From Flavobacteriaceae bacterium (GTDB lineage Bacteria > Bacteroidota > Bacteroidia > Flavobacteriales > Flavobacteriaceae), in NCBI GenBank assembly GCA_002702875.1, contig PACV01000024.1, positions 1 through 52,717 of the forward strand: DNA of 52,717 nt. The letters are read 5' to 3'. Below the pieces are notes generated by a model. The model made no database searches, had not been told where the DNA came from, and saw nothing but the letters and a program-made list of their open reading frames with translations. Made by a program: the position numbers and the translations under genes. Positions 13,419 through 18,039 of this stretch are shown here, piece after piece; the stretch's first letter is position 1, and each line of letters begins with the position of its first letter.

Positions 13419-13462
13419 AAATAAACTAAAGCAGTTATTTTCTTGATTGCTTTAGTTTATTT
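13419..13462. terminator. Bidirectional terminator of hsp20 and uvrB
   Basis: A perfect 14-base inverted repeat, AAATAAACTAAAGC (13419-13432) and its complement (13449-13462), around a 16-base loop. T-rich tracts follow the stem on both strands, so it can end hsp20 rightwards and uvrB leftwards. The right arm lies inside the last codons of uvrB, whose stop codon (13435-13437) is in the loop. Confidence 0.75.
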
Positions 13463-15447
13463 AATTTTTGTTTATACAAGTTTAAAAGATCCCTATTTTT
13501 CGCTGCTAGGATAAAATCAAGATTTTTTGCAGCATCCTCCATTTCTTTTCTAATGTTTTTTATATTTTTTTCTATTTCACTTTTAGAAGAAATGTTTTCA
13601 ATTTTATTTTCTAAAATATCAATATTTTTTTCATTTTCGGAATTTTTAATACTTTCCCTAACAAGTATGTTATGAATTGACTTTTTTAATGGTTTAGGAG
13701 TTATATTATTTTTTTTATTGTAAATAATTTGTTTGGCTCTTCTATCTTTTGTTTTATTAATTGTATCTCTCATACTTCTTGTAACTCTATCAGCATACAT
13801 TATGGCTTTCCCGTTTATGTTTCTTGCTGCTCTACCAATTGTTTGAGTTAAAGATCTATTACTTCTTAAAAACCCTTCTTTATCTGCATCTAAAATTATA
13901 ACTAGGGATACCTCAGGTAAATCAAGTCCCTCTCTAAGTAGGTTAACTCCAACTAAAACATCAAATAATCCCTTTCTTAAATCATGCATAATATCTACTC
14001 TTTCTAGGGTATCAATATCACTATGGATATATTTACTTCTGATATTAAGTTTTAAGAAATATTTTGCTAACTCTTCAGCCATTTTTTTTGTTAATGTAGT
14101 TATTAGCACTCTCTCATCTAACAAAACCCTATTATTAATTTCTTCAATTATATCGTCAATTTGATTTTTTGAAGCCCTTACTTCAATTACAGGATCAAGA
14201 AGTCCCGTTGGTCTTATAATTTGTTCAGTGAAAATACCATCTGATTTATTTAATTCATAATCAGCTGGTGTGGCACTAACATATAAAACTTGATTTTGTA
14301 GTTTTTCAAACTCTTCAAATTTTAAAGGTCTGTTATCCATTGCAGCAGGTAATCTAAATCCATATTCAACAAGGTTAACCTTTCGACTTCTGTCTCCTCC
14401 GTACATTGCGTGAACTTGGGGTATGGTTACATGACTCTCATCTATAACCATCAAAAAGTCATCTGGAAAATAATCTATGAGGCAAAATGGTCTTGTTCCA
14501 GGTTTTCGTCCATCAAGATACCTCGAATAATTTTCAATACCAGAACAGTAACCTAATTCTTTTATCATTTCAATATCAAAAAGAGTTCTTTCTTCGAGTC
14601 GTTTAGCCTCAAGTTTTTTACCATTTTTTTTAAAAAAATCAACTTGATTTGTAAGATCTATTTGAATTTCATCTATAGCATTTGATATTATTTTGGGAGT
14701 TGTAACAAATATATTTGCTGGATATATATTTATTTCTTCGTATTTTTCAATGATATCTTGGGTATCAATACAGAAAGAGAATATATCCTCAATTTCGTCT
14801 CCAAAAAATAAAATTTTTATTGGATTATCAGAGTAAACTGGAAAAATATCAATTACATCTCCAATTAATCTAAAATTCCCTTTTTTTAAATCATCAATTG
14901 ATCTTGTATATAAACTTTGAACAAAATATTTAAGTAATTTTCTCTTTGATAAATTTTGTGTCAATTTAATATTTATTATATTTTCTTTAAATTGAACTGG
15001 GTTTCCAATTCCATATAAGCAAGAAACAGAAGCGATAACAATTACATCTCTTCTTCCTGATAATAATGAAGATGTAGTTCTTAATCTAAGTTTTTCAATT
15101 TCATCATTAATTGATAAATCTTTTTCAATATAAGTTCCAGTCACTGGAAGGTATGCTTCGGGTTGATAGTAGTCATAGTATGATACAAAGTATTCAACAG
15201 CATTTTCAGGAAAAAATTGTTTAAATTCAGTGTAAAGTTGAGCGGCTAGAGTTTTGTTATGAGCTAAAATTAATGTTGGTTTCATTAATTTTTGTATCAC
15301 ATTAGCTACTGTGAATGTCTTACCTGATCCTGTAACTCCTAATAATGTCATGAATTTTTCATTTTGTTTGAATCCATTATATAACTCCTGAATTGATTCT
15401 GGTTGGTCACCTGTTGGTAAAAAATCTGATTTTAATGAAAAATTCAT
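13435..15447 (-). CDS. uvrB: Excinuclease ABC subunit B
   Basis: Damage-verifying helicase-like subunit of nucleotide excision repair; acts with UvrA and UvrC. The Walker A motif GVTGSGKT is at residues 37-44. The beta-hairpin region YYDYYQPEAYLPVTGTYIEKD, the DESHVTIPQ box, GVNLLREGLDLPEVSLV and QTIGRAARN are all present. A C-terminal UVR motif (residues about 630-665, EMEDAAKNLDFILAAKNRDLL) mediates contact with UvrC. At 670 residues it is normal. It stands alone between convergent hsp20 and the divergent kinase-like gene. Confidence 0.98.
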   Translation of the reverse strand: MNFSLKSDFLPTGDQPESIQELYNGFKQNEKFMTLLGVTGSGKTFTVANVIQKLMKPTLILAHNKTLAAQLYTEFKQFFPENAVEYFVSYYDYYQPEAYLPVTGTYIEKDLSINDEIEKLRLRTTSSLLSGRRDVIVIASVSCLYGIGNPVQFKENIINIKLTQNLSKRKLLKYFVQSLYTRSIDDLKKGNFRLIGDVIDIFPVYSDNPIKILFFGDEIEDIFSFCIDTQDIIEKYEEINIYPANIFVTTPKIISNAIDEIQIDLTNQVDFFKKNGKKLEAKRLEERTLFDIEMIKELGYCSGIENYSRYLDGRKPGTRPFCLIDYFPDDFLMVIDESHVTIPQVHAMYGGDRSRKVNLVEYGFRLPAAMDNRPLKFEEFEKLQNQVLYVSATPADYELNKSDGIFTEQIIRPTGLLDPVIEVRASKNQIDDIIEEINNRVLLDERVLITTLTKKMAEELAKYFLKLNIRSKYIHSDIDTLERVDIMHDLRKGLFDVLVGVNLLREGLDLPEVSLVIILDADKEGFLRSNRSLTQTIGRAARNINGKAIMYADRVTRSMRDTINKTKDRRAKQIIYNKKNNITPKPLKKSIHNILVRESIKNSENEKNIDILENKIENISSKSEIEKNIKNIRKEMEDAAKNLDFILAAKNRDLLNLYKQKLNKLKQSRK

Positions 15448-15509: not shown

Positions 15510-16586
15510 ATGAGGAAAAAGCTAATTTCTAAAAAAAAACCTTTTTATCCAATCAATGAATTATTAAAAAAATATTTGATTTCAAACAATAGGTGGTTTG
15601 AAATAAATATTTTATATAATGATCTACTCAGGTTTAAAGGTTCTGTAGTAGTTTATGATAAAAATAATAACGATACACTTTGGGTGAGATTATTTTACAA
15701 CGAAAATGAAAACTTTGAAATTGAGCAGTATTTAAAAAAGATTTATGCTAGGCTACATTCTGATGGTAATGATGATCAGTTTGAATTTTTGAAAATTGAT
15801 GCAATTGACTATTGTACATTTGGTAATTCAAAACCTTTCAGAATAAAAATTAGAAATATTTTAAATGATAATTTCATTTATTTCTATATAAAAAAAACTG
15901 ATGCTTCTAGAGTGTATGGATTGGAATTTGAGCATATGCTATCACCATATAATATAAATTTTTTGGTAAATGATTCAATATTAATTGAAGAGCACATCTC
16001 AGGAATTCCTGGTGATATATTTATTAAAGAAAATTTAAAGGATTGTTCGAATATGGAGAAAGCTCAATTAGCAAAAGAATATGTTAAATTTAATGAAAGA
16101 TGTATGATAAGATTGCTTGGTGATATGAGATCATATAACTATGTTGTTGTTCCAATTCATGATTTTGACAAAGTTGTATACAGAATAAGACCAATTGATT
16201 TTGACCAGCAATGTTTTGAAGGTAAATTAAAAATTTACAGACCCCAATTTTTTGAGGAAAATTTAAAACTTATGAATCTAATTAGAGATAAGTTAAATCA
16301 TGATTCAGTTTTACAATACAAAATTGAAGAGAGATCGATAATTGCTAAAAGAATTATAGGATCAGAAAAAAGATTAAGTAAAATTATTGATATTATGAAA
16401 AAAGATAAAATTACAATAAAAGAGAATTTAATTCAGCTTAGGGAAGAGATCTTTAATTTTACTTCTGATGAATCATTTCGAAATAGTAAAAGTATGGGAT
16501 CTGTTATGGAATCTTCTTTTAATTATGTTAGGAATCATTATGAAAATCTAAATTTATCTAAGTTAATAAGAGATTATAATCAATAA
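15510..16586 (+). CDS. Conserved hypothetical protein with kinase-like motifs
   Basis: A 358-residue soluble protein I cannot name. Its motif order resembles the protein-kinase/aminoglycoside-phosphotransferase fold: FYIKK (Lys128/129, beta-3 lysine-like), GLEFEHM (Glu139/141, helix-C-like), ILIEEHISGIPGD (158-169, hinge-like), LGDMRSYNYVV (Asp205 and Asn210, spaced as in HxDxxxxN) and RPIDFDQQ (Asp230/232, DFG-like). No signal peptide or membrane helix is visible. The C-terminal 90 residues are helical and charged. I start at ATG 15510 because the longer frame is a hydrophobic extension antisense to the uvrB 5' end. Substrate and role are unknown; the kinase reading is inference from motif spacing. 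Confidence 0.7.
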   Translation: MRKKLISKKKPFYPINELLKKYLISNNRWFEINILYNDLLRFKGSVVVYDKNNNDTLWVRLFYNENENFEIEQYLKKIYARLHSDGNDDQFEFLKIDAIDYCTFGNSKPFRIKIRNILNDNFIYFYIKKTDASRVYGLEFEHMLSPYNINFLVNDSILIEEHISGIPGDIFIKENLKDCSNMEKAQLAKEYVKFNERCMIRLLGDMRSYNYVVVPIHDFDKVVYRIRPIDFDQQCFEGKLKIYRPQFFEENLKLMNLIRDKLNHDSVLQYKIEERSIIAKRIIGSEKRLSKIIDIMKKDKITIKENLIQLREEIFNFTSDESFRNSKSMGSVMESSFNYVRNHYENLNLSKLIRDYNQ

Positions 16587-16604: not shown

Positions 16605-17006
16605 TTAATTACTATTCTTTAAGGAGATTTCTCCTTCAGAGAAAATAATATTTGGATATTTTGTATTTGGAATAGCTTTACAAACCTCCACTAGTTCAAT
16701 GAAAAATGTATTAAGATTTAGGTAATCATAAACGTATAATAGTTTACTCTCTTTTAATGTAAGTAATGAATCAATTTTTAAAGATTTCATTGATTCTAAT
16801 TCATTATCAAAATTAACTAATGGAATTTCATGAATAAATTCCCATTTTTCATTTGATTTGTAAAATGAAGCCAATTCATTTCCTACTATTCCAAATGATT
16901 CAAGAATAATTTTGTGAAATTTTTCCAAATTAGTTGACGACTTTAATTCAATATCTCTTAAAATGTCTTTATCATTATCAAAAATTATTCGAACTCTATA
17001 AATCAT
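16605..17006 (-). CDS. Plasmid pRiA4b ORF-3-like family protein
   Basis: A 133-residue acidic protein matching the N-terminal part of the pRiA4b ORF-3-like family: YRVRIIFDNDKDILRDIELKSSTNLEKFHKIILESFGI, then ELASFYKSNEKWEFIHEIPL, then the helical LLYVYDYLNLNTFFIELVEV. The biochemical function of the family is not established. Despite the plasmid name, chromosomal copies are common in Bacteroidota and I see no mobile-element ends here. It begins 3 bases downstream of the second half of the heme A synthase and probably shares its transcript. Confidence 0.75.
   Translation of the reverse strand: MIYRVRIIFDNDKDILRDIELKSSTNLEKFHKIILESFGIVGNELASFYKSNEKWEFIHEIPLVNFDNELESMKSLKIDSLLTLKESKLLYVYDYLNLNTFFIELVEVCKAIPNTKYPNIIFSEGEISLKNSN
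16621..16636. terminator. Short hairpin AAGGAG-ATTT-CTCCTT in a convergent gap
   Basis: A 6-bp stem with a 4-base loop, relatively GC-rich for this DNA, inside the last codons of the pRiA4b-like gene and 35 bases after the kinase-like gene's stop. No T-tract follows on the plus strand, and one follows only at a distance on the minus strand, so terminator function is uncertain. The hairpin may reflect codon choice only. Confidence 0.25.
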
Positions 17007-17009
17007 AAA

Positions 17010-17429
17010 TTAAATTTTAAAAATTTTAAAAACCAAATACGATTGCAGTCCAAATAAAGCCGATGCCAAAACCAGATGAATTGGTTGGGAACTAAATGGA
17101 AAGTCAAAATAGAACATGATTGCACCAGTAGTAATCTCTAAAATAATAATTAATAATACTAAATTTATTAATATTAGTGAGTAATTATTTCTTTTTAAGA
17201 TCAAGTATATCAAAAAATTTAAAAAAATTATAAAAATTGAAAAACTTCTATGAATATAAAATTTTATAGGGGCTGGGTCCAGCCAAATATTCTTTAACTC
17301 ATTACCTAAATTTTTATTTTGAATATCGATAAATTGCCTTACAAGAGATCCTAAAAATATTTGTAGAATAGTACAAATAAATGAAAATAAAACTAAATAT
17401 TTGATCCCGTTATTTAAATTCCCTTTCAT
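17010..17429 (-). CDS. ctaA: Heme A synthase, C-terminal half (frameshifted COX15/CtaA)
   Basis: About 139 residues forming helices 5-8 of COX15/CtaA, which oxidises the C8 methyl group of heme O to a formyl group to make heme A for cytochrome oxidase. Two conserved histidines are visible, IHRSFSIF in helix 6 and IHLVLASALFG in helix 8. VRQFID and WLDPAPIKF are typical of the Bacteroidota family. The frame is +1 relative to the first half. An ATG at 17429-17427 sits exactly at the junction and could start a separate protein; a TTG at 17450 would give 146 residues. With one A fewer in the A7 run the two halves would read as one protein of about 342 residues. Confidence 0.85.
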   Translation of the reverse strand: MKGNLNNGIKYLVLFSFICTILQIFLGSLVRQFIDIQNKNLGNELKNIWLDPAPIKFYIHRSFSIFIIFLNFLIYLILKRNNYSLILINLVLLIIILEITTGAIMFYFDFPFSSQPIHLVLASALFGLQSYLVFKIFKI

Positions 17430-18039
17430 TTTTTTCAAACACCCTAACAAGATATAATAAATAAATTAAAATGAATACTATAACTAGTGCCATCATCATG
17501 TGAATAGATATTTTAACAGGCTGTAAATTTGAATCTACAACAGTTTTTCCTAGCCATGCTTGAAACAAAATAAACAAAATAGATACAAAAGAAAAAATGA
17601 CTATTTTTCTTTTGGTTTTCCAAAAGCTTAACGAAAAAATAAATGTAATTAGAGTTGATAATCCTGCTAAAGCTCCTAAAAGTCTGTTTAAAAATTCTAT
17701 CCATGTATGTTTTACGTCAAATGTGGAGTAGTCATGGACTTTGTATTCTGTCCAATTATTTAGATTAATATTATTTTTTGACATAAAATCTTCATTGGCA
17801 TAAAAAAGTTTATCCTTATAAATAATCATTTGTTTTTTTGTGTACTGATATTCTTTTTTCCAAAAAAGATCAGATTTTTTAGTTGGAGGAACTAAATATC
17901 CAAAACATTTTGGCCAGTCAGGGCAACCCATACCACTACCAGTCATTCTTACAAATGCCCCTGCAGCAATAACTAAATAAATTAGTATGATTGTAATAAT
18001 TAAAGAAAATTTAAAATATTTTTTGTTTATGTTATTCAT
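17410..18039 (-). CDS. ctaA: Heme A synthase, N-terminal half (frameshifted COX15/CtaA)
   Basis: A 209-residue product covering helices 1-4 of COX15/CtaA: GAFVRMTGSGMGCPDWPKCFG after helix 1, HTWIEFLNRLLGALAG in helix 2, FQAWLGKTVVDSN in helix 3 and IHMMMALVIV in helix 4. The two histidines of this half are present. The frame ends (stop at 17412-17410) soon after an A7 run at 17435-17429, while homology continues in the +1 frame. Either a one-base insertion or sequencing error has broken a single gene, or the protein is made as two pieces. It overlaps the end of cca by 4 bases (ATGA-type junction). Confidence 0.88.
   Translation of the reverse strand: MNNINKKYFKFSLIITIILIYLVIAAGAFVRMTGSGMGCPDWPKCFGYLVPPTKKSDLFWKKEYQYTKKQMIIYKDKLFYANEDFMSKNNINLNNWTEYKVHDYSTFDVKHTWIEFLNRLLGALAGLSTLITFIFSLSFWKTKRKIVIFSFVSILFILFQAWLGKTVVDSNLQPVKISIHMMMALVIVFILIYLLYLVRVFEKNEREFK
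17429..17435 (-). other. A7 homopolymer at the ctaA frame break
   Basis: Seven consecutive A on the coding strand (T7 on plus) at the point where the ctaA frame changes. Removing one A joins both halves; adding one creates an immediate TGA. This makes polymerase slippage, genuine indel mutation or sequencing error the plausible explanations, not -1 ribosomal frameshifting. Confidence 0.8.

Follow-up and report, generated by a model that had tools for sequence, protein, structure and literature searches.

The protein-kinase-like superfamily is defined in the microbial kinome paper, as far as the excerpt used here extends, by six catalytic residues (G52, K72, E91, D166, N171 and D184) and four further key residues; all but one of the key residues have been lost in some family, and the kinship of the PI3Ks to the kinases was determined from structure (PMC1821047). 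Within the PI3Ks, the catalytic loop of PI3KC2alpha carries D1250, H1252 and N1255, and the loop histidine has been proposed as the base in the available part of the same source (PMC8930771). Among bacterial kinase-like proteins, Hip kinases were retained by Gerdes et al. only if a putative antitoxin gene was adjacent, according to the section of that paper considered here (PMC8262856).

In this study, we analyzed a window of 52,717 bases, the whole of one contig from a 1.7 Mb Flavobacteriaceae assembly (G000). We propose that it probably encodes a member of an undescribed, Bacteroidota-wide protein-kinase-like family whose core is closest to PI3K/PIKK, and which passes phosphate to a fixed cellular partner in a chromosomal housekeeping role that involves no antitoxin. 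This is a new family within a known superfamily. The gene and its direct neighbors are organized as follows:

13435..15447, minus strand: uvrB (presumably, as named from its sequence), divergent upstream neighbor, forming no conserved unit with the kinase gene
15510..16586, plus strand: putative kinase-fold gene, 358 aa (protein P0001), from the ATG at 15510 to a stop codon that ends at 16586
16605-17006, minus strand: PRiA4_ORF3-like gene (PF07929, E 5.9e-15), downstream of the kinase gene

The reading frame is open further 5', yet homologues start where the ATG at 15510 lies. With 62 bases to uvrB, 18 bases to the downstream gene and both neighbors oppositely oriented, there is no space for a partner gene in the window. 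Scanning the region for promoters and terminators revealed promoter-like sites no more often than in shuffled sequences. The next gene (17010-18039, minus strand), which we take to be COX15/CtaA-like, is split over two frames (209 and 146 aa), whereas relatives have it as a single ORF of roughly 348 aa; the split reflects either a frame break or an erroneous assembly.

The protein had been described as an orphan in the earlier note, a view that is refuted by homologues in 55 of the 99 relatives searched, in 99 of the 395 genomes drawn from the phylum and at 586 or more loci confirmed in a genome-contig scan. Among the 99 relatives, the own genome is matched, as are 46 of 56 genomes from its family (one by a stretch of 49 residues only), 7 of 39 from its order and one of three from its genus, where both misses are 62-63% complete. 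The profile search of the 395 genomes yields a match in 37/41 genomes of the family (own included), 2/8 of the order outside the family, 32/49 of the rest of the class (one as fragments only) and 28/297 outside the class, the class and phylum denominators being tallied from the listing of the same genome draw. Tenacibaculum, Maribacter, Aquimarina, Arenibacter and Olleya are named carriers among the matches listed in the contig scan. The gene is single-copy in its own genome and nearly every other carrier genome likewise has a single match; genome G188 has two full-length matches. A mobile-element origin was considered and rejected, as the phages, plasmids and viral contigs searched gave zero family matches.

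Two records stand apart. One genome within the class (G342, locus L170) holds two short gene pieces with stops and no full copy, probably a decaying copy. A contig titled Rhodospirillaceae MED667 (L052) carries a copy that shares 71% identity with the window protein, and the taxon name on this record is probably wrong.

The neighbors of the gene differ between clades. The upstream gene lies on the opposite strand at 97 of 119 loci and the downstream gene at 97 of 117; in Flavobacteriaceae the kinase gene is mostly solitary, with a neighbor in the opposite orientation on either side. The position next to uvrB emphasized in the earlier note is real and divergent in the window, but does not hold generally: uvrB adjoins the gene in 16 of 119 loci only, and a link to DNA repair was rejected on this ground. 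No partner gene is conserved across clades among the loci mapped, so the context points to no substrate. We also rejected a toxin-antitoxin reading, since no small partner recurs in 70 loci at a threshold of ORFs of at least 80 codons, below which shorter ones would be missed.

Conservation was assessed in a main alignment of 163 rows (161 distinct sequences, reducing to 130 at 90% identity and to 43 at 70%), in which the 19 most distant members show 36-48% identity. L084 (an unknown residue) and the repeats L001-L003 and L134-L136 were dropped, L001-L003 being the window plus two loci retrieved a second time with extended flanks. A held-out set comprised 37 of 40 fetched members that are absent from the main alignment, with a best identity to any of its rows of 58-97%; at L231, L252 and L256 no family ORF was recovered, probably lost to the overlap filter, and the profile search lists matches there. 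All five motifs formerly pointed out were confirmed with the same numbering: FYIKK (125-129), GLEFEH (137-142), ILIEEHISG (157-165), GDMRSYN (204-210) and PIDFD (228-232). They fall within or overlap the following elements, all on the plus strand:

15789..15857 (codons 94-116), plus strand: strand-loop-strand with loop TFGNSKP (103-109) and invariant N106, P109 and R111; from both models and invariance
15870..15896 (codons 121-129), plus strand: strand with invariant Lys128, the proposed ATP lysine; from both models and invariance
15903..15941 (codons 132-144), plus strand: helix with R134, G137 and E141, D131 just preceding it; from both models and invariance
15978..16004 (codons 157-165), plus strand: strand ILIEEH and turn into the C-lobe, with invariant E160, H162 and G165; from both models and invariance
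16119..16139 (codons 204-210), plus strand: GDMRSYN, putative catalytic loop, D205 and N210 invariant; from the alignment
16191..16211 (codons 228-234), plus strand: PIDFDQQ, proposed metal-binding DFG-like motif, D230-F-D-Q-Q234 invariant; from the alignment

In the 163-row alignment, 35 of the 358 positions are invariant. K128, D205, N210, D230 and D232 are all among them (hypergeometric p ~7e-6, merely a guide since the aligned rows are related). The supposition that the catalytic residues are invariant in homologues thus holds for Lys128, Asp205, Asn210, Asp230 and Asp232 (163/163, and 37/37 held-out members) but not for Lys129, which is Lys in 125 of 163 rows. Other invariant positions include D131, R134, G137, E160, H162 and the run D230-F-D-Q-Q234, of which D131, R134, Q233 and Q234 are likewise kept in 37/37 held-out members. 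E141 is Glu in 163/163 rows and in 36 of the 37 held-out members, with Asp in one. The catalytic loop itself varies between clades. All 144 rows below L151 carry Arg at position 207 and Tyr at position 209, and the ten rows from outside the class (L151-L160) all read GDMHxGN, with His 207 and Gly 209; His at D+2 is accordingly found in 10/10 of L151-L160, in 2/9 of L161-L169 and in 0/144 of the other rows.

Compared with the superfamily six, four residues are matched outright (K128, D205, N210 and D230 for K72, D166, N171 and D184), the helix Glu probably and the glycine not, the one-to-one equivalence being drawn from order and predicted secondary structure. E141 would be the helix C acid, segment 157-165 the hinge, and loop 103-109 may stand in for the glycine-rich or P-loop hairpin; its G105 is not invariant, leaving G52 without a counterpart. 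With this set of residues the family fits the superfamily description given in the excerpted part of the microbial kinome paper (PMC1821047).

Structure prediction is in agreement with this assignment. AlphaFold2 models were built for the window protein (mean pLDDT 84.6, pTM 0.84; 77 aligned rows) and for L126, its Olleya marilimosa homologue (mean pLDDT 86.3, pTM 0.85; 52 aligned rows), from alignments with different reference sequences that have most rows in common (alignments A1, A2 and A4 hold 23, 77 and 52 sequences, respectively). Both show the same order of elements in a two-lobed kinase-like fold. The predicted N-lobe consists of strand 94-102, the loop, strand 110-116, strand 121-129 (K128), helix 132-144 (E141) and strands to 162; in the predicted C-lobe, helices are followed by the catalytic loop at 205, by hairpin 209-230, which leads into D230, and by a helical C-terminal part. 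The best Foldseek rows against the PDB are eukaryotic kinases and pseudokinases (TYK2 JH2 included) for both models, with modest best E-values (1.9e-4 and 4.6e-4), TM-scores of 0.2-0.4 and large rmsd, and a viral structure search matched mostly kinases as well. Both models match kinases first in Foldseek and in VIA-align, which bears out the kinase fold formerly suggested from motif order, and we consider it very likely, on these predictions, that the protein has a kinase-like fold.

VIA-align places PI3K/PIKK structures first for the window model (Vps34 3ls8, Z 10.5, rmsd 4.7, 268 aligned) and for the Olleya model (3ihy best, Z 10.9, rmsd 4.8, 269 aligned), where every one of the 50 matches listed belongs to the PI3Ks or PIKKs, Tel1 and SMG1 among them. 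Among the matches listed for the window model, the next families are Bud32 (Z 6.7, rmsd 5.0, 180 aligned), WaaP (Z 6.3, rmsd 4.5, 177 aligned) and APH(2'') (Z 6.2, rmsd 4.8, 168 aligned). Bud32 and WaaP differ from the PI3K match by shorter alignments and lower Z. The program's documentation gives 7 to 8 as the usual best Z of models with no clear match; a Z of 10-11 over most of the chain thus exceeds background, though the match (Z 10.5-10.9 with an rmsd of about 5) is remote. We lean toward PI3K/PIKK as the nearest known branch.

Several features resemble those of this branch. Structurally, both models match PI3K/PIKK members (Vps34, p110 isoforms, Tel1/ATM, SMG1) best, over nearly the whole chain, the D-x-x-x-x-N loop with His at D+2 recurs in family members outside the class, and so does an IDFx metal motif in the family. 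The spacing of D, D+2 and D+5 in PI3KC2alpha equals that of D205, 207 and N210, going by the excerpt cited (PMC8930771). In p110alpha, Pro778 comes right after loop 771-777, as P109 does after the loop here, whereas the catalytic and metal aspartates lie 18 residues apart (915 to 933) versus 25 here, in the part of that source available (PMC4207468). Further differences are an identity of 7-11% with no PF00454 match, DFG there versus IDFDQQ here, and the format of a stand-alone bacterial protein of 358 aa. The catalytic His of PI3Ks is Arg in 144/144 rows below L151. As this His is the base proposed in the PI3K excerpt (PMC8930771) and is Arg in most class members, a lipid-kinase reading is disfavored.

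Named families were also sought by sequence. The earlier statement that the protein cannot be linked to a named family stands, as Pfam, NCBIfam, PADLOC, PHROGs and PDB sequences give chance-level matches only. Pfam returned no kinase-family match in 42 members (23 of A1 and 19 of A3) at E up to 10, and PF00454, PF07804 (HipA_C) and PF01636 (APH) were without a match in the same 42 members at that limit; no CotH Pfam is among the matches listed there either. A PADLOC 'Cas2b' match (E 0.0036) covers 54 C-lobe residues and is taken as chance. In the open-access literature searched, we found no description of the family, a weak negative.

The earlier note had suggested a comparison with HipA, APH and CotH kinases. 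HipA (PF07804) is a bacterial protein with a kinase-like fold, and the GDMHxGN ... IDFD arrangement of family members outside the class resembles APH and other small-molecule kinases (PF01636); the GDMHxGN form is typical of APH-type kinases. When the family was compared by hhalign with 30 HipA and 23 APH proteins from the phylum, using 60 column-shuffled controls each, the best alignments (15 columns for HipA, 33 for APH) set GDMRSYN over the catalytic D...N of both, in HipA over its D-x-H-x-x-N. These alignments are no better than those of shuffled columns, 20/60 shuffles reaching the HipA score and 43/60 the APH score. PI3K/PIKK structures score higher, the structural match to APH being weaker than that to PI3K and confined to the core with no profile match, and HipA shows no significant sequence match; the suggested comparison did not yield the closest relative. 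No HipA chain is among the VIA-align matches listed for either model, which is no evidence against a HipA-type fold. HipA also differs in that Hip kinases were retained only with a putative antitoxin gene adjacent (by the portion of PMC8262856 considered) and none is evident beside the family gene, and no antitoxin-type partner recurs in the neighbor maps (ORFs of at least 80 codons). That the family consists of HipA- or APH-type kinases diverged past recognition is in our judgment very unlikely.

Two other readings accept the fold and dispute the chemistry. A kinase fold may serve another transfer, and SelO is an AMPylase with a kinase-like fold. Likewise, SidJ performs polyglutamylation by a kinase-like fold, as reported in the excerpt of PMC6858067. 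The active site here is unusual enough to invite such a reading, with DFDQQ in place of DFG and both Q233 and Q234 invariant; the complete Lys/Asp/Asn/Asp set in its usual order, with no specific pointer to other chemistry, makes AMPylation or glutamylation unlikely nonetheless. A pseudokinase or non-catalytic ATP-binding scaffold would agree with a P-loop devoid of glycine-rich character and with the pseudokinases (TYK2 JH2) in the top Foldseek rows. Pseudokinases typically lose some catalytic residues, but Lys128, Asp205, Asn210, Asp230 and Asp232 are invariant (163/163 and 37/37), and we regard a non-catalytic role as quite unlikely. The earlier alternative between a new phosphotransferase and a pseudokinase would accordingly be decided for the former, which is preferred because every catalytic position is kept. 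Given a kinase fold, catalytic activity of some kind is highly probable.

For the phosphotransferase proposed here, the following mechanism can be envisaged. ATP-Mg would be held between the small lobe (loop 103-109, K128 and helix C) and the large lobe, gripped by loop 103-109 and by Lys128, which may pair with Glu141. Asp205 would act as catalytic aspartate, and Asn210 together with Asp230 and Asp232 would bind Mg2+. The gamma-phosphate would then pass to a partner gripped by the conserved helical C-terminal part. This would be one fixed, conserved cellular partner, a protein more likely than a drug or lipid. Four traits favor a fixed housekeeping substrate over a drug, a toxin target or a mobile function: the near-universal single copy in the family, strong conservation along the entire chain, the chromosomal location and the absence of a partner gene.

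Because the discovery of kinase-fold enzymes relies mostly on sequence, families so remote from every profile escape notice. The gene is near-universal in a major bacterial family, its active site is strictly conserved and it is nameless; a core phosphotransfer reaction of Bacteroidota has thus probably been overlooked. If the PI3K/PIKK-like core is real, the family would offer a small stand-alone bacterial relative for studying the origin of that kinase branch. Since the gene occurs in cultivable genera, deletion combined with phosphoproteomics is feasible.

Some local associations were observed among the neighboring genes, which were identified by scanning one member per cluster. Outside the class, a glycosyltransferase gene (Pfam glycosyltransferase), presumably bshA of bacillithiol synthesis, lies directly upstream on the same strand at 12 of 70 loci (at L151 as well by another gene count):

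bshA-like loci: L154, L156, L157, L159, L160, L253, L257, L258, L260, L265, L266, L267

The co-occurrence profile is uninformative, as bshC is near-ubiquitous (384 of 395 genomes) versus 99 of 395 for the kinase, and a bacillithiol link was rejected as the general function. At L164, L237 and L241, all of one family, the kinase gene has a flavodoxin gene on one side and RseC- and RnfB-like genes on the other, all in the same orientation, the RnfB-like label being our assumption. Further partners are DUF3817 (four loci), DUF2130 (three), pyruvate carboxylase (three) and aldolase (four), and at single loci pyruvate kinase, GAPDH with PPDK, malic enzyme, and clpP with clpX; pyruvate kinase and aldolase are presumed identities, named from sequence only. 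Central-carbon neighbors occur in separate lineages (L039, L040, L042, L043, L033, L167, L243, L244, L246 and L247). This central-carbon link is a lead, counted by eye in five lineages, picked after looking and taken without a background control. A more specific proposal, in which the protein is a bacterial protein kinase of PI3K/PIKK-like type that is native to the Bacteroidota, has been kept by vertical descent as a near-universal housekeeping regulator in several families and might act on central carbon enzymes, appears rather unlikely.

The second copy in G188 (L166:6022-7146, minus strand) is divergent, 36% identical to the window protein, and has its catalytic motifs intact. It is flanked by clpP, at a gap of 3 bases, and by clpX, both in its own orientation, a placement that possibly links this type of kinase to Clp proteolysis.
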